Shown: positions 10,544 through 22,204 of the stretch, one piece after another
Numbering within the stretch: position 1 is the stretch's first letter
Layout of the letters: the number at the start of each line of letters is the position of its first letter
Assembly (NCBI GenBank): GCA_021792755.1
Contig: JAJYUA010000012.1
Span: 1 to 64,000 of the forward strand
Direction: 5' to 3'
Length of the DNA: 64,000 nt
DNA from: Pseudomonadota bacterium
GTDB taxonomy: Bacteria > Pseudomonadota > Gammaproteobacteria > Steroidobacterales > Steroidobacteraceae
Program-made: the position numbers and the translations under genes
Notes under the pieces: model-generated
Told to the model about the DNA's origin: nothing
Seen by the model: the letters and a program-made list of their open reading frames with translations, nothing else
Database searches by the model: none

Positions 10544-11179
10544 TCAGTCGGGTTGCGGCATGCGAAACAGAGCGTCCCGCTGAATCTGGAAGTAGTCCGT
10601 TCGCCCTCCGCCGCGCAGCACGGGAGCCGCCGCCGCCGTATCGTACAGGCCCTTACGCAGCAGGCGGTGCGCGATGTGCACACCCACCACCTCGCCCAGG
10701 ATCAGCCATGTCGATAGCGTGCCGCCCGAGGCATCGCGTAGCGCAACGATCTGGGAGAGGCGGCATTCCAGATTGACCGGACTCTCCGCGACCCGGGGCG
10801 CTGCGATATTCGCGGAGGGAGCGGATGTCAGCTCCGCCAGGTGAAATTCATCGGTATCGGACGAGACGGTTGCGCTGGTCGCATTCATTCGCTCCGTGAG
10901 GTCCCGGGTAACAAGATTCCAGACGAACTCACCGGTCTTCTCGGCATTGCGCAGGGTGTCCTTGGAGCCAAGGCTCGCGAAGCCGATGATCGGCGGCCGG
11001 TAATTGAAGAGGTTGAAGAAGCTGTACGGCGCCAGATTCCGGTGACCCGCGCCGTCGTGAGTCGAGATCCAGCCGATGGGGCGCGGCGCGATGATCGATC
11101 CCAGCGGGTCGTGCGCCAGTCCGTGACCCTTTTGCGGATCGTACCAGTACCGATCGCTCTCGAGACTCGTGCCGCTCAT
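10544..11179 (-). CDS. flavin reductase family protein (FMN-binding split barrel)
   Basis: 211 residues. Family features: YDPQKGHGLAHDPLGSIIAPRPIGWIST near the N-terminus, NLAPYSFFNLFNYRPPIIGFAS, NAEKTGEFVWNLV, and a C-terminal region binding FMN (LILGEVVGVHI). Members reduce or bind FMN with NAD(P)H and often support two-component oxygenases. Its ATG overlaps the stop of the upstream SRPBCC gene (ATGA), so it is the third gene of an ArsR-SRPBCC-flavin reductase operon. The substrate is unknown. Confidence 0.85.
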   Translation of the reverse strand: MSGTSLESDRYWYDPQKGHGLAHDPLGSIIAPRPIGWISTHDGAGHRNLAPYSFFNLFNYRPPIIGFASLGSKDTLRNAEKTGEFVWNLVTRDLTERMNATSATVSSDTDEFHLAELTSAPSANIAAPRVAESPVNLECRLSQIVALRDASGGTLSTWLILGEVVGVHIAHRLLRKGLYDTAAAAPVLRGGGRTDYFQIQRDALFRMPQPD

Positions 11180-11628
11180 GCCGGAGTTCCGGTCACGCGC
11201 TCGAGCCGCTCCAGCACCCTCGGCCAGCCCCCAGACATCGTCGCGTAAGCCGAGGCATTCCGCGGCCCGAACCCGGTGTGCTCCATCCGAACCCGCGTCC
11301 CGCCGGATACGGGCGTGAGCGTCCATTCGACGATGCTGTCGAGAGCGGTGCCGTGGCCGAAGGTCTGGACCGAGCCTCCCTTCCACGTATACACGAGCCG
11401 ACTCGGCGGCTCGAAGGTGGTGATCTCGCAGTCGACGAGTCCATTCCAGTTACCCATCGGCTTGGCGTGAAACTGAAACCGCGCGCCCAGGCGCGGCTCG
11501 AAATCATTCTCCATCAGCCACTCCGCGATGAGCGAGGACTGGGTCAGGGCGCGCCAGATCTTCTCCGGCGGGTAGGGCATCGTCCGCTCGAGCACGATCG
11601 AGCGAGTAGCCGGGGAAATGTTGGTCAT
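11176..11628 (-). CDS. SRPBCC (AHSA1-like) domain protein
   Basis: 150 residues of START/AHSA1 type: MPYPPEKIWRALTQSSLIAEWLMENDF, LGARFQFHAKPMG, the ...RLVYTWKGG... strand, WTLTPVSGGTRVRMEHTGF and GGWPRVLERLE at the end. Such proteins hold hydrophobic ligands in a helix-grip cavity. It is the middle gene of the operon: its start overlaps the ArsR stop and its stop overlaps the flavin reductase start, each by ATGA. ArsR-AHSA1 pairs are common, and the ArsR probably controls it. Confidence 0.9.
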   Translation of the reverse strand: MTNISPATRSIVLERTMPYPPEKIWRALTQSSLIAEWLMENDFEPRLGARFQFHAKPMGNWNGLVDCEITTFEPPSRLVYTWKGGSVQTFGHGTALDSIVEWTLTPVSGGTRVRMEHTGFGPRNASAYATMSGGWPRVLERLERVTGTPA

Positions 11629-11993
11629 CAGTCCATCCTCTGCAGAAGATCTTCAAGACGATCGAGCCGCTCACGCCAGAAAGCCCCATACAGGCTCAGC
11701 CAGTCCACGAGCGGCGAGAGGCTCTGCGCCTCGGCACGGTAGTGTGTTTCCCGTCCCGCGTGCCGATCCCGGACGAGACCCGCCGACTTGAGCACGGCGA
11801 GGTGCTTCGAGACGGCAGGCTGCGAGATCCCGGCGTAGCGGGTGAGCATCCATACGGTCTGCTCGCCTTCACGGCACAGCCGCTCGAAGAGGGAGCGGCG
11901 CGTCGGGTCGGCCAAGGTTCTGAACACGTCGGCGGCGGAAGCGGTCTTCACGGTAATAAATAGCTGTACAGTTATGCGATTAATGATAACCAT
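11628..11993 (-). CDS. ArsR family transcriptional regulator
   Basis: 121 residues with a winged helix-turn-helix: VFRTLADPTRRSLFERLC, MLTRYAGISQPAVSKHLAVLKSAGLV, then the wing RDRHAGRETHYRAE. No metal-binding ELCVCDL-type Cys motif is present, so it is not an arsenic sensor; it belongs to the group paired with SRPBCC proteins. The start MVIINR at 11993 is typical of relatives. It heads the operon and probably represses it. Confidence 0.9.
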   Translation of the reverse strand: MVIINRITVQLFITVKTASAADVFRTLADPTRRSLFERLCREGEQTVWMLTRYAGISQPAVSKHLAVLKSAGLVRDRHAGRETHYRAEAQSLSPLVDWLSLYGAFWRERLDRLEDLLQRMD

Positions 11994-12219: not shown

Positions 12220-12309
12220 GTTTCCGAGAGACTGACCAGCCGTACGGTCAGAGGCGCGGCTGCGACACCCACCGCGATAGGAACGGTTCCGGGCTTCCGA
12301 CGGATGCCG

Positions 12310-12555
12310 TTACCGCTGATCCTTGGCCGGCGCCGGAATCTTCGGCGCCCGGCGGAGGAACTTCAGCATGTCCTTCGGCTTCGCCGTTCCCGCGCGCTCG
12401 CGCAGGAACTCTCGCGCGGTGCGCAGACACCCGACCTTCTCGGCCACGGCGGCGGCGATGAACGGGTTGAGGGAAACCCCGTCACTCGCCGCGAGCCCGG
12501 CCGCCGCCTTCTTGACCGATGCCGGCCGCTTCAGGGGATAGGTGCTCTTACTCAT
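12310..12555 (-). CDS. ribbon-helix-helix antitoxin (HicB/toxin-antitoxin type)
   Basis: 81 residues. The start STYPLKRPASVKKAAAGLAA followed by DGVSLNPFIAAAVAEKVG is a classic ribbon-helix-helix DNA-binding unit of toxin-antitoxin antidotes; the tail (FLRERAGTAKPKDMLKFLRR) is the usual toxin-binding part. It looks complete. Its ATG overlaps the TGA of the PIN fragment upstream (ATGA), so toxin precedes antitoxin. With the toxin truncated it may now be an orphan repressor. Confidence 0.75.
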   Translation of the reverse strand: MSKSTYPLKRPASVKKAAAGLAASDGVSLNPFIAAAVAEKVGCLRTAREFLRERAGTAKPKDMLKFLRRAPKIPAPAKDQR

Positions 12556-12735
12556 GTCTTGATCCTCTTCAGGAACGCGCCGGGCGTCACCGCCTCAATC
12601 CCGAACTCCCCGATCGCCGGCTGGAAGTGGCGCACATTATGCGTGACGATCGCCTTCCCCCTGCCAGTGTCCGCGGCCTCGAGCACGCTCGCGTCATCGG
12701 GATCGGCGAGCGGGACGCCTTTCGCCGGGACCGGG
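12552..12735 (-). pseudogene. PIN-domain toxin C-terminal fragment
   Basis: The last ~60 codons of a PIN toxin remain: PLADPDDASVLEAADTGRGK, then AIVTHNVRHFQPAIGEFGIE and TPGAFLKRI. They retain the DPDD motif and the TxNxxxF region that follow the catalytic centre. The N-terminal half with the first catalytic Asp is replaced by a DUF2285-type sequence. The stop overlaps the antitoxin start. Confidence 0.65.
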
Positions 12736-13060
12736 AAGCCACCGGGCCAGCGACGATCAGCTCGCGGTATTCCCCGGCCGTCAGCGCCTGCGCCCTACGG
12801 ATGAGATACCGCGCCTGGGTGCGCAGGGCGCCGTCCGGCTGCCAGCTGCGAGCGGCGGCGGCTCCGGAAGAGCGCAACCGCCAGTTCGCGCAGGGAGGCG
12901 CCAGCCGCCAGGCCATCGAGAACCCGCAGCGCGCGTGTGCGAAAGGGGTCCCTCCGGCCGGGACGCTCGCGAGTGATCCCTCTCGCCCTGCACCCGCACC
13001 CATCCCTCTGCAATCCCCGCCCGCCGGATGACGCACGGGGTGCGAATTTTTGCAAATCCG
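12736..13060 (-). pseudogene. DUF2285-type protein remnant, frameshifted
   Basis: In one frame RDPFRTRALRVLDGLAAGAS and LRELAVALF, then in another frame DGALRTQARYLIRRAQALTA and GEYRELIVAG, reproduce the helix-turn-helix-like DUF2285 pattern (biased towards alphaproteobacterial and mobile-element genomes). The frame changes near 12870. The start is not identifiable. It is joined to a PIN toxin tail at about 12735. Confidence 0.5.
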
Positions 13061-13123
13061 TTCCCGATCACGAGCGCTGATTCCGGGGTCCATCTCGCCT
13101 GCGGACGCAGTGCTCCTCGCCGT

Positions 13124-14029
13124 TCAAGGCTCACCGCCAACAGGCTCGATGCACAGGCCTTTCAAGCGCTCAGGATCCATCACGACCTCGATGACGCCTA
13201 TCACTTCCCTCTCGACGGTGAACAGGAAGGCCACCACGGGTTTGCCGCCGGGAGCCCACATCGCGCCGAAATGACCATTGATCAGCGCCAGTCGTGCGCC
13301 GGTCGCCCGACCTTTGAAGGTCTCGGCCACCTTTTCTCCTCCGCGAATCTCCCTTTCAAAGGGCGGCGCTCCCTTGGCGCGATTCCGTGCGGCGATCTTC
13401 ACTGCAGTGGCATCCGCATAAAGGGTGGCGTCGGGGGCGAGAAGGCGAAGCAACGCGGCAAAGTCCCGCTCCCTGGAGGCCGCGAGAAAGGCGGACACGA
13501 CTTCCCGTTCGCGCACGCCTTCAGCAACCGATGACCGGCTCCTTCCTCGCACCTTCCGGCGCGCTCGGCTGGCAAGCTGCTTGGCTGCCACTTCCGATCG
13601 ATCGAGGATGGCGCCGATTTCCTTGAAGGAAATATCGAAGATGTCATGAAGCACGAATGCGATACGTTCCATCGGCGTCAGTGTGTCGAGTACCACAAGG
13701 AGCGCCGGGCCCACGGAGTCGGCCAGCATCACATCGGACTCCGGTGTCCGGGAGTCACTGTCCTCTGAGCGATCCGGGCTGACGCGGCCGATCGCTTCCA
13801 ATTTCGCCTTTCGCGAGCGCAGGACATCCAAACAGACCCTGGCCACCACCGTAGTGAGCCAGCCGCGCAGATTCTCGATGCGCTCCGCATCAGTACCCGT
13901 CAATCTCAGCCATGCCTCTTGAATGGCGTCATCGGCCTCGGACGAGGACCCGAGCATCCGGCAGGCCAGCGCGCGCAGCTGAGATCTGCTTTCCTGAAAT
14001 TTCTTGGCGAGCCAGTCGCTCTCCTTCAT
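13124..14029 (-). CDS. ECF41-type RNA polymerase sigma factor (SigJ-like)
   Basis: 301 residues. Region 2 is at about residues 12-80 (QLRALACRMLGSSSEADDAI, QEAWLRLT, GWLTTVVARVCLDVLRSRKA); region 4 at about 108-165 (LTPMERIAFVLHDIFDISFKEIGAILDRSE). A SnoaL-like domain fills the last ~110 residues, the mark of ECF41, where it acts as a built-in regulator instead of an anti-sigma factor. The usual DGGGK and NPDKL motifs of that domain are altered here (DATAVK; MDPERL). It is divergent from a carboxymuconolactone decarboxylase gene, the partner typical of ECF41, with an ECF41 promoter between them. Confidence 0.9.
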   Translation of the reverse strand: MKESDWLAKKFQESRSQLRALACRMLGSSSEADDAIQEAWLRLTGTDAERIENLRGWLTTVVARVCLDVLRSRKAKLEAIGRVSPDRSEDSDSRTPESDVMLADSVGPALLVVLDTLTPMERIAFVLHDIFDISFKEIGAILDRSEVAAKQLASRARRKVRGRSRSSVAEGVREREVVSAFLAASRERDFAALLRLLAPDATLYADATAVKIAARNRAKGAPPFEREIRGGEKVAETFKGRATGARLALINGHFGAMWAPGGKPVVAFLFTVEREVIGVIEVVMDPERLKGLCIEPVGGEP

Positions 14030-14042
14030 CTTTGCGATTCCT

Positions 14043-14069
14043 CGTCACCTTTCAGCCGCGTGAACCGTC
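14043..14069 (+). promoter_or_regulatory. ECF41-type promoter (CGTCACC-N16-CGTC)
   Basis: The -35-like box CGTCACC at 14043-14049 and the -10-like box CGTC at 14066-14069 are separated by exactly 16 bases. The published ECF41 consensus is TGTCACA-N16-CGTC. It points at the CMD gene starting at 14165 and lies 14 bases from the start of the sigma gene on the other strand. Confidence 0.7.
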
Positions 14070-14164
14070 ATCCACATGACGAACGGCGGCTCCGACAGGT
14101 GACGGGCACCTGCCGACCGTCGATGCCGGAATTGCAAATCCCTGAAGGCACAGGAGAAAACCAT

Positions 14165-14617
14165 ATGCAGCCTCGAATGAAAAGCCCAGCCACGATCATC
14201 CCGGAGGCCATGGAGCCCTTTCAAGCGCTGAATTCCATCATCGCCAAGAGCGGCCTGCCGCAGAAGCTCCTCGCCCTCGTTCATCTGCGTGCCAGTCAAA
14301 TCAATGGATGCAGCGCGTGCGTCTTTGGCGGCTATCAACAGGCAAAAAGGCTCGGGGAGACCGAAAACAGAATTTCCACTGTGGCGGCCTGGCGCGAAGC
14401 CCCCTTCTATACCGATGCGGAGCGCGCAGCCTTGGACCTGACGGAAGCGGTCACCAGATTGAGCGATCGCTCCAATCCCGTATCGGACGAACTATGGGAG
14501 CAGGTGTCGAAGCACTTCAAAGAGCGGCAGCTCTCGGCCTTGCTGCTCTCGATTTGCCTGACCAATGTTTACAATAGGATCAATGTCTCGACCCGGCAAA
14601 TTGCCGGGCAGTGCTAG
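14165..14617 (+). CDS. carboxymuconolactone decarboxylase family (AhpD-like) protein
   Basis: 150 residues. The AhpD/CMD core is clear: LALVHLRASQINGCSACVFG carries the redox CxxC, followed by TVAAWREAPFYTDAERAALDLTEAV and a C-terminal NVYNRINVSTR. Relatives act as peroxidase-like thiol enzymes. Most have CxxCxxxH; here the His position is Gly (CSACVFGG), so proton relay may be changed. AGGAG precedes ATG 14165. It is controlled, by inference, by the divergent ECF41 sigma factor through the promoter at 14043-14069. Confidence 0.9.
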   Translation: MQPRMKSPATIIPEAMEPFQALNSIIAKSGLPQKLLALVHLRASQINGCSACVFGGYQQAKRLGETENRISTVAAWREAPFYTDAERAALDLTEAVTRLSDRSNPVSDELWEQVSKHFKERQLSALLLSICLTNVYNRINVSTRQIAGQC

Positions 14618-14696
14618 CCGCGAGGCGAAAGCGTTGAGTACGCCGGAGCGCTTGCCGGGACTTGGGTACGGCGTGAGAGGGCCGTGAGGGGGGGAA

Positions 14697-15065
14697 ATGA
14701 ACATCACCCTTTGGGCTTTTCAGGTTGCTCTGGCCGTGCGCACGGCCTGCGGGGCGGTATGGAAATTCTCGCATACCGCCGCGCAGACCATGCCGTCCAT
14801 CAAGGCGATACCGAACGGTGCATGGAAGACGATGGCGGTGACCGAGATATTGCTCGCGGCCGGATTGGTGATACCGGCGCTGGGCAGCCCGTTTGGCACA
14901 CTCGCTCCGTGTGCGGCCACCGCGATCGGGGGCGAGATGCTGCTGCTGTCCGGGGTGCATCTTGGCTCCGGGTCCAAACGCATGGGCCCCAGCGGCTACG
15001 GGCTCGTGATGGCCGCCGCAAGCGCTCTCCTGTCATACCGCAGGTTCGTGCCAAAGCCCTTTTGA
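14697..15065 (+). CDS. DoxX-like membrane protein
   Basis: 122 residues with four hydrophobic segments (about 4-22, 45-62, 68-85 and 98-113). The pattern FSHTAAQTMPSIKAIPNGAW between helix 1 and 2 and VTEILLAAGLVIPAL agree with the DoxX-like group of small inner-membrane proteins. A GGGGGAA sequence precedes ATG 14697. It follows the CMD gene by 79 bases and may be cotranscribed from the ECF41 promoter. Its function is unknown. Confidence 0.75.
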   Translation: MNITLWAFQVALAVRTACGAVWKFSHTAAQTMPSIKAIPNGAWKTMAVTEILLAAGLVIPALGSPFGTLAPCAATAIGGEMLLLSGVHLGSGSKRMGPSGYGLVMAAASALLSYRRFVPKPF

Positions 15066-15118
15066 GGACCCACCATGACGCTCATGCCGCAAGCCAGCCC
15101 TCACGATAGGACCGAGCG

Positions 15119-15616
15119 GTGATCAAGCCGGGCGCGGTACTGCGCTTTCAAGCCAGACTGGAAAACTGGGCCAAGGGCATGGACTACTGCGCGGTCGCCG
15201 TTCCGGCGAGGATCACGCAGGCATTGGGCACCAAGAAGGCCGTGCTCGTCATGGCCAGCCTCAACGGTTGCGAGCCATTTGAGGTGAGCTTGTTTCCCGC
15301 CGGCGGCGGGAAACACTATATGAGAGTACGGGCCCAGGCCCGAAGACACGCGAAGGTCCTGGAAGGTGACCTCGTCAAGGTTCGCATCAGAATCCTGGAT
15401 CGGCGCCAGGTGGATCTTCCCCACGATCTCATCGCGGCGCTGACGGACGCAAATGCATCGAAGAAATTCGATGCGTTGACGCCGGGGAAGAGGAGCTATG
15501 CGGTGCGCAAGATCAACGCAGCCGCTCGCCCCGAGACCAGAAAGAGACGGATCGCGGAAGCGGTGGAGTTGGCTCTAGGGGAGGCGGAGCAAAGGACAGA
15601 TCGCGGAATGCGATAG
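15119..15616 (+). CDS. DUF1905/YdeI-type protein
   Basis: 165 residues with a GTG start at 15119 and an AGGA box upstream. Residues about 5-90 are a DUF1905 beta-barrel (FQARLENWAKGMDYCAVAVP, SLNGCEPFEVSLFPAGGGKHYMRV, LEGDLVKVRIRI). Residues about 100-160 are the YdeI/OmpD-associated tail (KKFDALTPGKRSYAVRKINA, ARPETRKRRIAEAVELAL). The family has been linked to peptide and bacteriocin resistance in enterobacteria, but the mechanism is not settled. It may belong to the CMD-DoxX transcription unit. Confidence 0.85.
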   Translation: MIKPGAVLRFQARLENWAKGMDYCAVAVPARITQALGTKKAVLVMASLNGCEPFEVSLFPAGGGKHYMRVRAQARRHAKVLEGDLVKVRIRILDRRQVDLPHDLIAALTDANASKKFDALTPGKRSYAVRKINAAARPETRKRRIAEAVELALGEAEQRTDRGMR

Positions 15617-15873
15617 GCTCGCATGGACCGGGGGCTCGAACACCGGAAATGCGCCGTATACCGTGACCCAGGGAGATGGTCATTGCATGGGGCGAGGCGA
15701 TCGTGCTCCTGGCAAATTTGCTCCTGGCTCAGGGCCTTGCGCGCTGGATCGGACGGTGGGATTCTGAGCGGGCTCAACCCAAGCGAACCTGAAATCGAAT
15801 CGGAATTTGCAAGATGCCGTAATGATCTGTTTCTACTAGACTTACAGATTGTTTTAGGTCGTATGTTTGCATC

Positions 15874-16287
15874 ATGACCAGGAAGCCCCTCACCCTCCGG
15901 GATCGCATCGCCGAACGCATCCGTCGCACGCGCAAGACGGATGTCTTCCTGCGCGAGGATTTCGCCGCTTTCGGGGCCTACGATGTCGTTGGCCGCGAGC
16001 TGCGCAAGCTGGTCGGCGAAGGACTTCTCGTGCAGGTGGGCTATGGCCTCTACGCTCGCGCAAAGCCCTCGGTGCTGTCGGGCAAACCCATTCCGGTCAC
16101 CCCGCTCATCGACATTGGCTTCCAAGCGCTGCGCCGCCTGGGCTATTCGCCGCAGCCGAGCCGGGCCGCCCTGGACTACATCGAGAGACGCACGACACAA
16201 GTGCCCGCGGGTGATCGCATTGCCGTGCCCGGTGCGCGCGTGACGCGCAAGATCGCATTCGGGCCGCGCGTCATAGAGTACACATGA
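15874..16287 (+). CDS. type IV toxin-antitoxin AbiEi/DUF6088-like antitoxin
   Basis: 137 residues. The N-terminal ~65 residues form a winged helix (TDVFLREDFAAFGAYDVVGR, ELRKLVGEGLLVQVGYGLYA) typical of AbiEi-like repressors, followed by a DUF6088-type C-terminal half (ALRRLGYSPQPSRAALDYI, VTRKIAFGPRVIEYT). Such antitoxins bind their own promoter and counteract an AbiEii nucleotidyltransferase without direct binding. It looks complete. Its stop overlaps the start of the next gene (ATGA), which is the expected toxin but truncated. Confidence 0.75.
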   Translation: MTRKPLTLRDRIAERIRRTRKTDVFLREDFAAFGAYDVVGRELRKLVGEGLLVQVGYGLYARAKPSVLSGKPIPVTPLIDIGFQALRRLGYSPQPSRAALDYIERRTTQVPAGDRIAVPGARVTRKIAFGPRVIEYT

Positions 16288-16502
16288 AGCGGCTGACGCA
16301 GGCGCAGTCCGAGCTGATTGACGCCTTCCTCGCCGAACACGGCGCTCGCGTGTCGACAGCACAGCTCGAGAAGGACGGTCTCATCTGCGAGGTGTTCTCG
16401 GCCTTCACCGAGCCGGTCGCGTACCGCGAGCACGAGCCGAAGTTTGTCCTGTGCTCTGCGGCGCTGCGAGCGTTGGATAGTTGGCCAGGTGACGCTCGCT
16501 GA
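16284..16502 (+). pseudogene. AbiEii-type nucleotidyltransferase toxin, N-terminal stub
   Basis: 72 codons. The start MKRLTQAQSELIDAFLAEHG, then LEKDGLICEVFSAF and EPKFVLCS, matches the beginning of AbiEii/AbiGii toxins (about 250-300 residues). Immediately where the nucleotidyltransferase signature GGTSLSK should begin, the sequence becomes unrelated (AALRALDSW) and stops. The catalytic Asp residues are all missing, so the product cannot be an active toxin. Confidence 0.65.
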
Positions 16503-16582
16503 TCCTGCGCAACGATACGCGAACGATAGCGAGGGCGTTGGGGACCTATTGAGAGTTCGAGCCAAGCTCGGCAGACCCTGGC

Positions 16583-17962
16583 TCACTCGTCAAGCCACCT
16601 CGGCTCTGCCGTGCCGAGTTGGCGCGCCGGCCGGTCCCAGCACAGGGCTGCATCACCAATACGGATGGGAGGCAGAATTCGCTGCGCGCTTCCCCAATCT
16701 GTCCGCTCGATCTGCGCACTGCGATCAGACTCGGTCTCGGGAGCGAAGGGCACCTCCTCGCGGTCGGTCGCATGCTCGATCAGCAGCCTCGCGGTCCTGG
16801 CGAGCGACAGGCGCGCCTCGACGCCATTTCCCTCCTTCATCCTGGACGTGATGCCGCGTATCGCGGCAGCCGCCATGAGATAGCCGGTCGCATGATCGAG
16901 CGCTTGGACGGGCAGCGGCACCGGCTTGTCCGCTCCTTTCCATGTCATACCGCGCTCAGCGATGCCCGCGCTCATCTGCACGAGACTGTCGAATCCCCTG
17001 CGAGCCGCCCACGGTCCGGTCCACCCGTAGGCGCTGAGCGTCACGTCGATCAGTCCCGGCGAGAGGCTGCGCCGCGCGGCAGAATCCAGTCCCAAGCGAT
17101 CGAGCGCGCCCGGCCGGTACCCGTGCAGCAGAATATCCGCTCCGCGGAGCAGCGCTTCGAAGCGCCTGCGCCCGCGCGACTCGCGTAGATCGAGTCGCGC
17201 ACAGCGCTTGCCCAGCGTGACTTCCGGCACAACGCCCGGCTCATCCCAATCGGGCGGGTCGATGCGCAGAACCTCGGCGCCGTAGCCGGCGAGAAATCGG
17301 GTTGCGACGGGCCCCGCGAGGACGCGGGTGAGATCCAGAACACGCAATCCGCGCAGGGGACGTTCCGGCGATAAGGACCACGCCGGCCTGGCGGCCGACT
17401 CGACTGCCACCCTATGGACCAGCGGTTCAGCGGCCACGGCACGACCTTGGGCGTGCCGATCCCATTCGGCAATCGAGCGCATCTCGGCGGCGCATCCGCC
17501 GGCCTCGACGACAGCGGCTTCAAGATCGGACTTCGACCACCTCGCGACGGTGCGCGCCACGGTGTCTCTGTCAGCTCCCACGCCAAGAATCCGCACTGCC
17601 GCCGCCCGGTGATGCGGCGCGTTCGTGTGCAGCCTCACCCAGCCGTCGCGAGCCTGGTAGTCGCCTGCAATCGGATCCCAAGGCGCGGGTAGGCGCCAGT
17701 CGAGAGGCCGGAGGGAAAACCCGAACCACATGGCGCTCAACCTGCGATCGACCGCGACGCCTGCCGCCTGACCCCCGGCGTCGCGCACAAGCTCGGCGAC
17801 GGCAAGACCTGCGGTCGCGATCGAGGCGGCGGCCATGTCGGCCACCGGGAAGGCGGAGGCGAGTCCGCCCGCTGCCGTGAAGACGACCTGATCGACCGCG
17901 CCGGTCTGTCCGCCGACGGCCGACCAGGCGTTTTCCGTGAGGACACGCGCACGCTCACTCAT
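16583..17962 (-). CDS. CoA-transferase family III (CaiB/BaiF) protein
   Basis: 459 residues. The family core begins near residue 210: GLRVLDLTRVLAGPVATRFL, GAEVLRIDPPDWDEP, LGKRCARLDLRE, HGYRPGALDRLGLD and RRGFDSLVQMSAGIA, the last containing the Asp expected to form the acyl-enzyme anhydride. The first 200 residues look like a diverged half-copy of the fold (RDGWVRLHTNAPHHRAAAVR). Such enzymes move CoA between carboxylic acids in fatty-acid, steroid or carnitine breakdown. ATG 17962 was chosen; the open frame extends upstream without support. It is isolated, so the substrate is unknown. Confidence 0.85.
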   Translation of the reverse strand: MSERARVLTENAWSAVGGQTGAVDQVVFTAAGGLASAFPVADMAAASIATAGLAVAELVRDAGGQAAGVAVDRRLSAMWFGFSLRPLDWRLPAPWDPIAGDYQARDGWVRLHTNAPHHRAAAVRILGVGADRDTVARTVARWSKSDLEAAVVEAGGCAAEMRSIAEWDRHAQGRAVAAEPLVHRVAVESAARPAWSLSPERPLRGLRVLDLTRVLAGPVATRFLAGYGAEVLRIDPPDWDEPGVVPEVTLGKRCARLDLRESRGRRRFEALLRGADILLHGYRPGALDRLGLDSAARRSLSPGLIDVTLSAYGWTGPWAARRGFDSLVQMSAGIAERGMTWKGADKPVPLPVQALDHATGYLMAAAAIRGITSRMKEGNGVEARLSLARTARLLIEHATDREEVPFAPETESDRSAQIERTDWGSAQRILPPIRIGDAALCWDRPARQLGTAEPRWLDE

Positions 17963-18138
17963 CGAAACACTCCAGTCGAATGGTCGGGGTGGAACCCGGT
18001 TGCCCGGTCGCAGACACTGCGGCCCATTCTCGGAACCGTGTGGCTCCATTCTCGCTGCGCTAAAATTGGCCTCACTCTTGATGCTTTGCGTCAATGTGCG
18101 TCGAGATGGAATGATCAACGGTAGCCGAGGCGCGGGCG

Positions 18139-18854
18139 GTGCTCGGCATTCAGCCACAGACGCGGTACGCGAGCAAGATCAGGGACATCGTTGCGGCCAC
18201 AACTTCCTTCTCCAGCCTCGCTGTCTGCGGATCAGCCGGCGTAGGCTGGGTCGCAATCTGCGCCAGCGCCCAATACGTGTTGCGCGCCCTCACCCGTGCA
18301 GCGCCCTCCTCGGCCTTCGCCAGCGCGTCCGGTTGTCGCCACGATGCGAAGACGATAGCCCCTTTTATGGCGGTGTCGCGGGCGTTGCCCGCCGGCTCGC
18401 GCTCGCGCGGGAGGATACGCGCGCCTTTTTTTTGCGATCAGCGCCGCGCACAATGGCACGTGCCTATGCCCCAGGCGACGAGACGGCTGGGATGCATTTT
18501 CCGCTTGACTACCATGCCGATCCGGCCCGGGGCGCGATTTCCGCCTGGACGAACGAGATGGCGCCATTGAGCTCGGCGCATTGGCTCCTGTTCGATGGCC
18601 TGTCGGCGGCGGCCGGCAACCGGATTCCGACTCTCATGATTCATGGTCCAGGTTGTGCCCGGCCGGACAACGCCAAGGATGTGTTCGAGCGCTTTTCGGG
18701 GCCGGAAGAGCTGGTGTGGATCGAGGGCGAGCAGATCGACTTCTATGATGAGCCGCAGCAGGTTGACCCGTCCGTTGCCGCCATCCATGCTTGGTTCGGC
18801 AAGCATCTGTCCGCCCCAGGGGCCTCCCGGAAGGAGAGAACGGCTCATGACTGA
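18139..18854 (+). pseudogene. alpha/beta hydrolase (COG1073-like) pseudogene
   Basis: One frame carries the nucleophile region in degraded form (VAICASAQYVLRALTRAAP, then HDAKTIAPF). At about 18361 the match passes into another frame (PFYGGVAGVARRLALAREDT, ETAGMHFPLDYHADPARGAI, GNRIPTLMIHGPGCARPDNA, EGEQIDFYD), ending at 18854. The catalytic Gly-x-Ser-x-Gly is not preserved (CASAQ) and the N-terminus is missing. The C-terminal 134 codons from ATG 18453 are still open. The stop overlaps the start of the next gene by 8 bases. Confidence 0.75.
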
Positions 18855-19311
18855 CACCTTCAACGAAATCAGCAACCAGATCGGCGCGCTTGCCGTGCGC
18901 GTGGATGCGCGAGACTGGCGGGGGTTGCTGGCCTTATTCGACACGCACGTGCGTATAGACTACACCTCGCTCTTCGGCGGCGAGGCGCAAACGATGACGG
19001 CTGATGACCTCATCGGCACTTGGCGTCGACTTTTGCCGGGCTTCACCCACACCTCGCATCTGATCGGCGCGCCTACGGTCAAGGTGGACGGTGACCGGGC
19101 GGAGGCGTGCGCGCCGGTGACCGCCTGGCATGCGATTACCGACCAGGTCGTGGAGGGTGGCGGCATTTGGATAGTCCATGGATGCTACGACGTGGTTTTC
19201 GTCAAGCGCCACGGCGGATGGCGCCTCGCGACGCTGGTCCTGGCTCGCGCCTGGGTGGAGGGTAACCCGGAACTGCCGAAGCTCGCAGCCGAACGCGCCG
19301 CGAGGAGTTGA
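18847..19311 (+). CDS. SnoaL-like (nuclear transport factor 2 fold) protein
   Basis: 154 residues with the NTF2-like pattern: ISNQIGALAVRVDARDWRGL, LALFDTHVRIDYTSLFGGEA, DDLIGTWRRLLPGFTHTSHL, WHAITDQVVEGGGIWIVHGC and FVKRHGGWRLATLVLARAWVEGN. The fold serves small cyclases, dehydratases and ketosteroid-isomerase-like enzymes as well as ligand-binding proteins. A GGAG sequence precedes ATG 18847. It overlaps the end of the broken hydrolase, its former operon partner. Confidence 0.85.
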   Translation: MTDTFNEISNQIGALAVRVDARDWRGLLALFDTHVRIDYTSLFGGEAQTMTADDLIGTWRRLLPGFTHTSHLIGAPTVKVDGDRAEACAPVTAWHAITDQVVEGGGIWIVHGCYDVVFVKRHGGWRLATLVLARAWVEGNPELPKLAAERAARS

Positions 19312-19586
19312 AACACGGTGGGTGCTGCGTATTCCGCCCTATCGTGACCGGCCGTTCGGGCCGAACGTGACCGCTCGTTCCGCCGCTATGACGCGAACGC
19401 CGGCTTTCCTCCGACCTGCAGACCGGACATGGCGGCGGAGCGCAATCGCCGGCTGCTCGGGATCGGGACTTGCCGGTCATCGCTCCCGGTTCGGCAAGTG
19501 ATGGCACGGCGTTTTGATGAAGCGTGCACCCGACAGATAAGGAGCGGATTGACCGTCAACTCGATAGCGTCCCCTGCGCCTTTCAT

Positions 19587-20279
19587 TTAGGCATGTTCAC
19601 GCCATCGCCATTCAAGGCCGAAATACTCGCCGAGTAGCGCGCGGCCCTTCGGAGTGAGGGTCAGGGCGCGATTCTGGGAATTACGCTTCAGGCCGCATGC
19701 GGTCTGAAGCCGCTCGCAAAGCGCCGCACCGAGCCAGCCCGCAATATGCGGGCGCCCTTCCGTCCAATCGAGGCACGGACGAACAGCGGCGCGGCGCATC
19801 GCGTGCGGTGGCGACAGGTCAAGCTTGGCGAGCCATTCATGACCGGCCGCGCTGATTGCAAACCCGTCGGACCCCGCGATGACACGGCCTTTCAAGATGA
19901 GGGAGTCGCAAATCGCGACACCGAGCGCCCCGGCGATGTGATCGTAGCAGCGGCGCGCGTGCTTGAGCGCAGGCGCGAGATGCTCGGTCTTTCGCCCGGC
20001 GAGATTGGCCGCAAACGACAGTGTCTCGATCGCGTGAGCGACATCGGCGTCGCGCAGGCGATAGTATCGGTGGCGGCCGCGAGCGCTGACAGCGAGCAGC
20101 CCACCGTCAAGCAAGAGGCTCAGATGAGCGCTTGCCGCCTGCGGCGAGGCTCCTGCCTGTCTGGCGAGCTCGCCCGCCGCGCGCTCGCTCCCGTCCATCA
20201 ACACCGCCAGCATTCCGGCGCGGACCGGGTCGCCGACGAGCGCCCCCATCCGTGCAATATTGGATAGCCCCGTCGCCAT
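19587..20279 (-). CDS. ArsR-type winged-helix regulator
   Basis: 230 residues. The N-terminal ~80 residues are a winged helix (VGDPVRAGMLAVLMDGSERA, ELARQAGASPQAASAHLSLL, then the wing LLAVSARGRHRYYRL). The rest is a longer C-terminal part (LKHARRCYDHIAGALGVAIC, then WLGAALCERLQTACGLKRNS and LTLTPKGRALLGEYFGLEW) shared by a subgroup of ArsR proteins. It is divergent from a flavin reductase gene, with starts 85 bases apart, so it probably controls that gene. ATG 20279 was chosen by the typical MATGLSNIARMGALVGD beginning. Confidence 0.85.
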   Translation of the reverse strand: MATGLSNIARMGALVGDPVRAGMLAVLMDGSERAAGELARQAGASPQAASAHLSLLLDGGLLAVSARGRHRYYRLRDADVAHAIETLSFAANLAGRKTEHLAPALKHARRCYDHIAGALGVAICDSLILKGRVIAGSDGFAISAAGHEWLAKLDLSPPHAMRRAAVRPCLDWTEGRPHIAGWLGAALCERLQTACGLKRNSQNRALTLTPKGRALLGEYFGLEWRWREHA

Positions 20280-20364
20280 ATGCCCGATGATAAGGCCTGC
20301 GCGCCCATCTTCGTTACAGGACATCCTGAAACATCACGCAAGGCCGCCCTGCCAGAGTGCACCC

Positions 20365-20985
20365 ATGGACAGCCAGATTGCGGATCGCTTCGTCGCCGTC
20401 TCCCCGGAGATTCTCTATTTCGGCACGCCCGTCGCCGTCATCAGCACGGTGAACCCAGATGGCACGACCAATCTCGCCGCCATGTCGAGCTTCTGGGCGC
20501 TCGGCGACCGCTTCATGCTGGGCTTGTCGTCCCATGGCCAGAGCGGACGCAATCTCGCGCGCACAGCAGAATGCGTGCTTAATCTGCCATCGCCCGCTGA
20601 ATGGGAGCAAGTGGAACGGCTCGGTCATACCACCGGACGCCTCCCGCTCACCGACTACCACCGCCAGGCTGGCATCGTGCACGCAAAGGACAAGTTTGGC
20701 GCGTCGGGCTTCTCGCCACTGGCATCGGAGATCGTGGCGCCCCTGCGCGCGGCGCAGTGCCCCGTGCAAATCGAGGCGCGCGTGCTCGCGCAGAGCCCCT
20801 TCAGTGGCGAAGGTAGTTTCCTCCATTTCGAGGTCGAGCGACTGCGCGTGCACGCCGCCCGCGCAATCCTGGACAACGCGGGCACTCGTATCGACATCGA
20901 TGCCTGGTCGCCACTCTTCTACGTCTTCCGTCATTATTTCGGCAAGGGGAAGCGGCTCGGAAAAAGCTTTCGCGCCCGATATTGA
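20365..20985 (+). CDS. flavin reductase family protein
   Basis: 206 residues with a split-barrel FMN-binding fold: TPVAVISTVNPDGTTNLAAM, SSFWALGDRFMLGLSSHGQS, ARTAECVLNLPS and LPLTDYHRQAGIVHAKDKFG. It resembles proteins that reduce FMN or bind it for a partner oxygenase. The divergent ArsR-type gene is the likely regulator. It is different in sequence from the flavin reductase at 10544-11179. Confidence 0.85.
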   Translation: MDSQIADRFVAVSPEILYFGTPVAVISTVNPDGTTNLAAMSSFWALGDRFMLGLSSHGQSGRNLARTAECVLNLPSPAEWEQVERLGHTTGRLPLTDYHRQAGIVHAKDKFGASGFSPLASEIVAPLRAAQCPVQIEARVLAQSPFSGEGSFLHFEVERLRVHAARAILDNAGTRIDIDAWSPLFYVFRHYFGKGKRLGKSFRARY

Positions 20986-21179
20986 CCAGAGCACACCTGA
21001 GCCGACGCGGCTTTCCACAACCAGTAGTCAGTTTGCAAATTCCCGACGAATACGGCCGCTCACCTGAGCGGTCCGCGGACGCCATGGCCGGCACTTGGCC
21101 GAGAGGCCTCACCTACGGCCAGGATTGGTTTCCGGGCCGACCGGAACGTATCCGAGGACCCGCGACGCAGCTGCGCGCT

Positions 21180-21562
21180 GCGGAACTGCGCGGAGAAATG
21201 GGCTTGTGCCTGCGGATGCCCTGGCCAGGGTGCTGAGCGAAGAGGCCCTGATGCTGGCCGATGGCGGCGGCAAGGTCAGTGCGGTGTCGCATCCGCCAAG
21301 AGGCGGCGCGCTGATCGCCCGGATTTTCATCGGTTTAGCCAGACTGCCGACAAGCCGCGCCTGGCGCCTGCACCCGGCGCGCATCAACGGCCTGCCAGGC
21401 TGTTTGATCTTCGACGACGCGACCGGCCAGCGGGTGCAGACCATCGCGCTGACGCCCTCGGCCACCGGGCCAGGGCGCATCGGCACGCTCGACATCCAGC
21501 GCAATCCCGATACGCTACGGGGTGTGCTGGCCGCGCCGGCCCGCAATGGTGCATCCGGCTGA
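21180..21562 (+). pseudogene. ECF41-type sigma factor, C-terminal fragment
   Basis: The frame contains only the SnoaL-like end of an ECF41 sigma factor: ARVLSEEALMLADGGGKVSA with the DGGGK motif, ARIFIGLARLPTSRAWRLHP, INGLPGCLIFDDATGQRVQT and IQRNPDTLRGVL with the NPDKL-type motif. Sigma regions 2 and 4 are absent upstream. It lies 144 bases before a CMD gene in the orientation and order typical of the family, so it was once the partner sigma factor of that gene. Confidence 0.75.
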
Positions 21563-21615
21563 GCCGCAATAGGGCAGTGCGGCGGACGCCAACGGACATG
21601 TGGGCTTTTTGACGA

Positions 21616-21642
21616 TGTCACGAGGCGAGAGGCTGGATCGTC
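21616..21642 (+). promoter_or_regulatory. ECF41-type promoter (TGTCACG-N16-CGTC)
   Basis: TGTCACG at 21616-21622 and CGTC at 21639-21642 are separated by exactly 16 bases, matching the ECF41 consensus TGTCACA-N16-CGTC in all but one position. It lies 64 bases upstream of the CMD gene at 21707 and points towards it. Confidence 0.8.
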
Positions 21643-21706: not shown

Positions 21707-22204
21707 ATGAGCCGCACCAACGAACAACCCCGCCTCGATTACGTTCAACAGTCGCCCGAGCTGGTCAAGAAGCTGCGGGACTTCAGCATGGCGATCGCCA
21801 ACAGCGGGCACATTGAGCCGGTGCTGGGCCACCTGGTGGATATCCGCGCCTCGCAGATGAACGGCTGCGCCTTCTGCCTGGACATGCACGTCAAAGAGGC
21901 CAAGCTGCACGGCGAGCGCGAGCTACGCCTGCACCACGTGGCGATTTGGCGCGAATCGCCGCTGTTTACCCCCAAGGAACGCGCCGCGCTGGCCTTGACC
22001 GAGGCGCTGACCCAGATTGCACCGACCGGCGTCTCCGACGAGCTCTATGCGAAGGTGCGCGAGCAGTTCGGCGAGCAGGAACTCTCGACGCTGGTCTTTC
22101 GCGTGATGGCCATCAACGCCTGGAACCGCGCCAACGTGGCCTTTCGCACCACGCCAGGCACGCGCGATAAGATCCTCGGTCTCGACAAGGCCGGGCTTGC
22201 CTGA
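21707..22204 (+). CDS. carboxymuconolactone decarboxylase family (AhpD-like) protein
   Basis: 165 residues with the full redox motif CAFCLDMH (CxxCxxxH) in VDIRASQMNGCAFCLDMHVK, and the usual LHHVAIWRESPLFTPKERAA, LALTEALTQIA and NAWNRANVAFRT. This predicts an alkylhydroperoxidase-like thiol activity or a small decarboxylase-fold enzyme. AGGAAAG precedes ATG 21707. It has its own ECF41-type promoter and follows the remnant of an ECF41 sigma gene. It is a paralogue of the CMD at 14165-14617, which lacks the His. Confidence 0.9.
   Translation: MSRTNEQPRLDYVQQSPELVKKLRDFSMAIANSGHIEPVLGHLVDIRASQMNGCAFCLDMHVKEAKLHGERELRLHHVAIWRESPLFTPKERAALALTEALTQIAPTGVSDELYAKVREQFGEQELSTLVFRVMAINAWNRANVAFRTTPGTRDKILGLDKAGLA

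Follow-up and report, generated by a model that had tools for sequence, protein, structure and literature searches.

Which genes are served by the single intact sigma factor of a region that also holds the remains of a second one? This question is raised by a stretch of 64,000 nucleotides (positions 1 to 64,000 of contig JAJYUA010000012.1, GenBank assembly GCA_021792755.1, from a bacterium of the Steroidobacteraceae), referred to in the following as the window, which features two genes of the carboxymuconolactone decarboxylase (CMD) type, each preceded by a promoter-like sequence. At locus 1, the CMD gene (CMD1) lies beside an intact gene for an extracytoplasmic function (ECF) sigma factor, here termed P0002, while at locus 2 the CMD gene (CMD2) follows a sigma stub. 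A preliminary description of this DNA had proposed that both promoters are of the ECF41 type and that the surviving sigma factor took over both CMD genes. The analysis presented here points to another arrangement, to which a probability of roughly 0.7 is assigned: locus 1 would be a self-contained sigma/CMD unit on one bidirectional promoter, and locus 2 what is left of a separate canonical ECF41 locus. Thus, an unsupported account of cross-control gives way to a testable one of facing promoters.

A predicted face-to-face promoter module

The promoter-like sequences CGTCACC-N16-CGTC and TGTCACG-N16-CGTC lie where the preliminary description had placed them, with exactly 16 bases between their boxes, and each precedes a CMD gene recognized by PF02627. 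Likewise, the sigma open reading frame of locus 1 proved intact. Overlooked until now was a second copy of CGTCACC-N16-CGTC on the minus strand (14104-14078), which points to the sigma gene start at 14029 and stands head-on to the CMD1 site. The features of locus 1 are as follows.

13124-14029, minus strand: intact ECF sigma factor gene (P0002, 301 aa) with sigma2, sigma4 and a SnoaL/NTF2-like C-terminal domain, without WLPEP, DGGG and NPDKL
14043-14104, both strands: predicted 62-bp face-to-face (bidirectional) promoter module
14043-14069, plus strand: CMD1-side promoter, -35 box CGTCACC (14043-14049), 16 nt, -10 box CGTC (14066-14069), predicted start 14078
14078-14104, minus strand: sigma-side promoter, -35 box CGTCACC (14104-14098), 16 nt, -10 box CGTC (14081-14078), predicted start 14069
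14070-14077: 8-bp gap separating the two -10 boxes
14165-14617, plus strand: CMD1 gene, 150 aa (PF02627, E 1.1e-16), with a CSAC motif

The centre of the module reads CGTC-ATCCACAT-GACG, and no other exact facing pair with 0-30 bp between its -10 boxes turned up in the scan of the source genome. Transcription starts were predicted 9 nt after CGTC, a distance taken from RpoE9 of S. meliloti, whose mapped start lies 9 nt downstream of this box (PMC3616915). Each predicted start, 14078 for CMD1 and 14069 for the sigma gene, is the last base of the opposite promoter's -10 box, so that both promoters would use the same melted stretch. A scan of the locus-1 segment for sigma70 promoters yielded one match, with 0.4 expected.

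The assignment of both sites to the ECF41 promoter holds for the spacing and only partly for the letters, as the first site deviates by two letters and the second by one from the published TGTCACA. At locus 1, the linked gene CMD1 is divergent, the spacing is exact and five of the seven -35 letters agree. The genome-wide scan for the two boxes that the preliminary description had proposed did not single them out: exact TGTCAC-N17-CGTC occurs four times in 3.76 Mb, compared with five times for the reversed control. With one mismatch permitted, the window contains six box-pair matches (4.45 expected), and the pattern without its first base gave 19 matches versus 11 for the control. The two boxes alone are thus at chance level and not special, and since no clear enrichment over the control exists, no further targets are claimed. 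The weight of the sites comes from their position before CMD genes and not from the box pattern; from the genome counts, arithmetic gives about 1.3e-4 expected correct-strand sites within 250 bp before a given gene.

A frame inside the module running from ATG to TGA was considered as a leader peptide and set aside, because the predicted start falls inside its ATG. Many modules (e.g., L044, L045, and L053) show, by eye, an eight-codon frame from ATG, TTG or GTG to TGA ahead of the sigma gene, which is probably a by-product of the geometry, as the predicted start sits inside the first codon.

Conservation of the spacing across phyla

The geometry was followed through 80 loci of P0002 relatives from several phyla (44-59% identity; the best 80 of 506 confirmed stretches) and through more loci from genomes of the same genus, giving a set of 85; L036 was left out of all family counts, its contig being the same as that of L015. 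With any spacing allowed, a facing pair occurs in 29 of the 85 loci, and the difference between the outer ends is 61 in 25 of them, 62 in three and 60 in one. Not one of 200 shuffling rounds of these loci produced a difference of 61, which corresponds to a span of 62. After addition of 14 plasmid loci and with GTTAC boxes permitted, again with unrestricted spacing, facing pairs were found in 41 of 99 loci, spanning 62 bp in 33, 63 in five, 61 in one, 217 in one and 226 in one. In 39 of the 41 pairs, the outer span therefore deviates from 62 bp by no more than 1 bp.

A scan independent of any protein, in which whole genomes were searched for GTCAC-N17-CGTC-N{0,30}-GACG-N17-GTGAC, led to the same spacing. 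It gave 13 matches in 13 genomes among 398 genomes of the window's phylum, with a gap of 8 in 11 of them and a single match of the reversed control. One of the matching genomes, G463, guided the choice of a second sample: 397 genomes of its order yielded 14 matches, nine of them already known from the first scan; the gap is 8 in 13 of the 14, and no control match is among the rows listed. In total, 15 of 18 distinct loci, window included, have a gap of 8, and all 15 lie between a P0002-like sigma gene and a divergent CMD1-like gene, neither of which is present at any of the three loci with other gaps.

The association with CMD is close and not exclusive. A divergent CMD1-like gene is present in 22 of the 85 loci, window included, 20 of which have the module, and nine further loci feature the module without such a gene. 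The divergent gene was scanned in five of these nine and belongs to an FMN oxidoreductase (L072, L094), a flavodoxin-fold reductase (L096, L108) or a glyoxalase type (L077). Apart from the window, the module loci of this set belong to Alphaproteobacteria, Actinomycetota, Chloroflexota, and Myxococcota. A module with a span of 62 is also present on plasmid pRL11 of Rhizobium johnstonii 3841, with RL_RS31870 as the CMD gene and RL_RS31875 as the sigma gene. In the 52 module loci used for the co-variation described below, the two arms tend to differ in how the -35 box begins: T predominates on the sigma side (37/52), G on the target side (31/52). The idea that this base (C versus T) tells family from canonical promoters was abandoned, since T, G and C all occur in the family.

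Co-variation of the recognition helix and the -35 boxes

If one sigma factor reads both arms, its -35-reading helix should be reflected in both boxes. The set consists of 52 module loci with facing pairs of span 60-64 only, 13 of which were chosen by the scan pattern; 13 of the 15 gap-8 pattern loci are included, the window copy L148 being counted as L013. Outside the set are L150, which has no assigned sigma protein and is also outside the tree described below, and L188, which belongs to the 99-locus count.

The sigma factors of the first two modules with GTTAC on both arms are the only two of 103 with methionine at one position of the region 4.2 helix. This methionine, and GTTAC on the target arm, recur in all of six further relatives of one of these sigma factors (54-73% identity), and four of the six have GTTAC on both arms. 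Over the 52 loci, methionine goes with GTTAC on both arms in 6/6 cases and any other residue with GTCAC on both arms in 46/46. Lysine at the neighbouring position goes with C as base 7 of the box, on the target arm in 11/11 loci (0/41 without lysine) and on the sigma arm in 8/11 (0/41). The sigma factor of the window has lysine in the helix and C on both arms. This co-variation is consistent with one sigma factor reading both arms, yet it is not independent evidence. It suggests that a small, readable code links two recognition-helix residues with two -35 letters; such a code would be useful for predicting targets of ECF41-like sigma factors and for building compact divergent switches.

A proposed shared initiation site and the case against it

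From the observed sequences, their fixed geometry across phyla and the co-variation, we infer sigma binding, transcription starts and exclusion between the two directions in the following way. Locus 1, which may have been acquired, would send transcripts for a CMD-type redox enzyme and for an ECF41-like sigma factor in opposite directions from one 62-bp promoter, composed of two complete sigma-dependent promoters that meet head-on with 8 bp between their -10 boxes. The same sigma holoenzyme would read both strands, and use of the facing pair by the ECF41-like sigma factor in both directions is regarded as most likely. As the holoenzyme sits in one direction only at a time, sigma feedback and target expression would be coupled and mutually exclusive per initiation, an exclusion which is probably a strong consequence of the geometry. 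The bidirectional promoter would here serve a single alternative sigma factor and its target, with a strict spacing. It is conceivable, at odds slightly below even, that such modules constitute an ECF-type bidirectional promoter class with a shared initiation bubble, in which each polymerase engagement leads to sigma or target, never to both. If this were true, positive feedback would be hard-wired against output through the shared bubble, and the sharing would have been kept almost to the base pair in four phyla despite target swaps and the joint change of helix and -35 box.

A number of observations weigh against a shared facing promoter. Under the patterns used, no facing pair is found in 56 of 85 and 58 of 99 loci; within the 85 loci, the sigma-side site was not found in 30 and the target-side site in 42. 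Four loci of the larger set (L041, L049, L050, and L088) have back-to-back sites instead. The plasmid locus L197 has the module, but its annotation shows no divergent gene and places the CMD gene downstream of the sigma gene, on the same strand. Canonical ECF41 loci lack facing pairs altogether (0/42), which is a weak control for geometry, since none of the 42 has a divergent CMD2-like gene either. Regarding the co-variation, two methionine-type loci that are near-copies of each other (L193, L194) show one arm only, the sigma-side arm not being found. Moreover, the tree requires three changes for lysine and two for methionine, only one pair of which lies on well-supported branches, and because of these few origins the co-variation is not statistically independent.

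The alternative which survives best, and is nevertheless unlikely, is that the facing geometry was inherited from one ancestor and kept by intergenic compactness, the two promoters being independent and uncoupled. Two further points against the shared promoter speak for it: the spacer has a median identity to the window of 45%, compared with 26% for permuted columns, so that descent accounts for part of the constant spacing, and the sigma start codon occupies a fixed place by the module in most loci, 2 bp away in 28 of 37 (one of the 37 distances, 14 at L146, is doubtful, as the data of the sigma tree give 2 bp for it). In addition, bidirectional sigma70 promoters of E. coli show little competition at basal activity (PMC12825309). 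Against it, the distances to the genes vary: 13 to 119 bp separate the module from the CMD start (n = 30, values extrapolated from alignments), and the sigma start lies at 11 bp (L108), 14 bp (window), 17 bp (L102) or 85 bp (L051), with the span unchanged and within 1 bp of 62 in the 39 pairs given above. The module is also kept where the divergent gene is not a CMD gene.

Classification of the intact sigma factor

Whether P0002 could serve a canonical ECF41 promoter depends on its relation to this family. Its sigma2 and sigma4 domains (PF04542, PF08281) score above the cut-off. No SnoaL match was found by sequence with Pfam; the SnoaL-like C-terminal extension of about 100 aa is well modelled (mean pLDDT 89, pTM 0.58), and Foldseek aligned the model to SigJ (E 7e-13, TM-score 0.32) and to ketosteroid-isomerase/NTF2-like folds. 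In the linker, IGRVSPDR stands at the place of WLPEP, and in the extension, ADATA and DPERL stand at the places of DGGG and NPDKL, conserved motifs of the ECF41 extension. The relatives of P0002 lack these motifs as well: WLP[ED]P is present in 0 of 98 family sigmas versus 41 of 42 canonical ones, DGGG in 1/98 versus 42/42, and NP[DE]KL in 0/98 versus 39/42.

P0002 also remains below both curated cut-offs, with 203.7 bits on TIGR02957 (cut-off 323.25) and 222.4 bits on NF007214 (cut-off 271). The ECF41 sigma-CMD pairing assumed for locus 1 in the preliminary description therefore stands with regard to the linked CMD gene but not to the sigma factor, which lacks the WLPEP hallmark. In a tree of 140 sigmas, calculated by a quick method and with long-branch warnings on a few canonical rows, one branch (support 100 in the Shimodaira-Hasegawa-like approximate likelihood ratio test, SH-aLRT) parts the 98 family rows from the 42 canonical rows. 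Owing to the missing motifs, the scores below cut-off and this branch, P0002 is placed by its sequence in an ECF41-like sister clade, outside ECF41 in the narrow sense.

Locus 2 as the probable remnant of a separate system

The second locus comprises the following features.

21095-21562, plus strand: open reading frame with the sigma stub, the C-terminal part of a canonical ECF41 sigma factor (homology 21212-21520)
21616-21642, plus strand: CMD2 promoter TGTCACG-N16-CGTC, closer to canonical ECF41 promoters, predicted start 21651
21707-22204, plus strand: CMD2 gene, 165 aa (PF02627, E 2.2e-19), with CAFCLDMH, a CxxCxxxH motif

Only a C-terminal sigma piece was found here, as had been reported before; it covers profile positions 182-278 of the 281 of TIGR02957. 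The stub scores 51.1 bits on the canonical ECF41 profile versus 9.9 on the profile of the P0002 family, carries DGGGK and NPDTL, and all 12 BLAST matches listed for it are canonical. The order of sigma gene, promoter and CMD gene on one strand, as in locus 2, occurs in 5 of 42 canonical loci. On a 13-position family-minus-canonical matrix, the CMD2 promoter scores -5.4 and both locus-1 promoters +4.0, on a scale where the scores lie between -1.1 and 10.3 for 74 family promoters and between -5.0 and 2.3 for 37 canonical ones; it counts against the reading of two separate systems that the matrices part the promoter types only moderately (50/74 family and 24/37 canonical promoters correct when left out one at a time). 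The CGTCTTGAGG context of the CMD2 promoter recurs in L162. Locus 2 would thus descend from a canonical locus with sigma and CMD genes in tandem, the sigma gene of which was broken; its CMD2 promoter is probably orphaned.

It is improbable that the intact sigma factor has inherited the target of the broken one and so controls CMD2 as well. P0002 is indeed the only full-length ECF41-like sigma factor found in the source genome, which is 96% complete, and CMD2 is still an open frame. Cross-recognition is possible in principle because the core boxes GTCAC and CGTC are common to both promoter types, and the CMD2 box begins with T, as do most sigma-side boxes of the family. Against this stands that the stub and the intact sigma factor belong to different clades and that the CMD2 promoter is nearer to the canonical type. 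Its base 7 is G, whereas the module loci with a lysine sigma and GTCAC have C on both arms in 5/5 cases, window included. The close relative G007 has other sequence in place of the region upstream of CMD2, and its CMD2 is a remnant with a stop; no match to P0002 was found in this genome, which is 80% complete. Moreover, the sigma factor may be a newcomer, as two genomes of the same genus have the flanks of locus 1 joined without it. The proposal that the surviving sigma factor drives both CMD genes is thus borne out in part for CMD1, by the divergent module in 15/15 gap-8 loci and by the co-variation of helix and boxes. Its extension to CMD2 is not supported; nothing found in this analysis points to such cross-control.

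The idea that the mirror sequence of locus 1 is an operator for a dimeric regulator and no sigma promoter pair draws on the module being a long near-palindromic inverted repeat and is highly implausible, considering that each half has the boxes and the 16-base spacer of mapped ECF41 promoters (PMC3426412, PMC3616915), that several family loci show just one half ahead of the sigma gene, and that the -35-reading helix of the sigma factor co-varies with the boxes.

Further observations concern the state of locus 2 and its product. In L026 (G007:C87), where the flanks are 95-97% identical, an apparent PIN/antitoxin pair, named from sequence, occupies the place of the stub and of the first part of CMD2. 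About 86 bp directly upstream of the stub (21085-21170) have a copy of 75% identity elsewhere in the L026 contig, after the CMD2 remnant; this stretch looks like a dispersed repeat and may have helped to break the sigma gene. As read from the sequences, CMD1 has CSAC without the histidine three residues later, and CMD2 retains the AhpD-type CxxCxxxH, so that the chemistry of the two enzymes may differ.

Comparison with known systems

The closest described system is ECF41 with its COE partner, a linked CMD, oxidoreductase or epimerase gene. As here, it comprises a two-domain sigma factor, a SnoaL-like C-terminal extension and the promoter TGTCACA-N16-CGTC (PMC3426412). P0002 differs in lacking WLPEP, DGGG and NPDKL and in its separate clade. 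Divergent ECF41 pairs with the motif on both genes were already counted by Wecke et al. (2012; PMC3426412): of 55 divergent loci, 36 carry it ahead of the sigma gene and 41 ahead of the COE gene. A fixed 62-bp facing geometry or the spacing between the promoters is not discussed in the parts of the main text considered. The best sequence and fold match to P0002 is SigJ of M. tuberculosis (PDB 5xe7; E 2.3e-34), at an identity of 30%. SigJ has the WLPEP linker motif that P0002 lacks, and the low whole-chain TM-score indicates that the domains are placed differently in the P0002 model.

Bidirectional sigma70 promoters share one -10 element, with distances of 18, 10 and 23 bp between the transcription starts being common (Warman et al., 2026; PMC12825309). 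The module of locus 1 resembles them in its pseudo-symmetric elements on both strands, in divergent starts a few bases apart, which are predicted here, and in the one orientation taken per polymerase. It differs by having two separate ECF-type -10 boxes 8 bp apart and no single shared one, by its occurrence in four phyla and by the fact that one product is the sigma factor itself. The word ECF is absent from the main text of that article. In Pseudomonas syringae, hrpL and hrpJ likewise place an ECF sigma gene and its target on a divergent intergenic region, and the sigma factor affects its own transcription; hrpL itself is transcribed with sigma54, and no facing ECF promoter pair is mentioned in the parts of the article considered (PMC5263251). 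A SigB-like factor was reported to bind intergenic probes (PMC5402319). Titles and the beginnings of abstracts among the articles listed yielded no literature on facing or bidirectional ECF promoters, subscription papers and supplements lying outside this search, and the novelty of the facing ECF promoter pair is accordingly provisional.

Origin and surroundings of locus 1

The sigma-CMD1 unit lies in a segment with two more genes.

13054-15716: segment of about 2.66 kb with the sigma, CMD1, DoxX-like and DUF1905/OmdA genes, not present where both flanks meet in G020 and G061
14697-15065, plus strand: DoxX-like gene (PF13564 below cut-off), in this segment with the sigma and CMD1 genes
15119-15616, plus strand: DUF1905/OmdA gene, in the same segment

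In G020, the left flank, which ends at window position 13053, joins the right flank, which begins at 15717, with TTTGC common to both junctions, and in G061 the same two flank ends are adjacent. The segment may accordingly be an insertion here or a loss there, possibly a recent acquisition. Insertion is only suggestive, given that the left flank contains stretches that recur within the genus, that the right flank at the G020 junction matches over 50 bp only, with a longer match on another contig, and that G036 has other sequence adjoining its right flank. The order of sigma, CMD and DoxX genes also occurs on a Streptomyces plasmid (L197).

Beside the segment lies a repeat element (12309-12719), of which several copies were found in genomes of the same genus (G020, G036, and other contigs); the small open reading frame at 12310-12555 has no Pfam match. 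Positions 11176-11993 hold an AHSA1/SRPBCC gene and an ArsR regulator. As SRPBCC, ArsR and DoxX genes are also found beside a P0002-type sigma gene on a Tsukamurella plasmid (L198), such genes may travel together. The closest sigmas of the same genus (L014-L018, 52-55% identity) are located behind another gene, with a YCII domain in the case of L014, which would be a different target for a sister sigma. Upstream sites of the CGTCAC type are present in three of these five loci; L016 has AGTCAC and L018 GGTCAC. Near some of them, open reading frames resembling mobilisation genes were observed.

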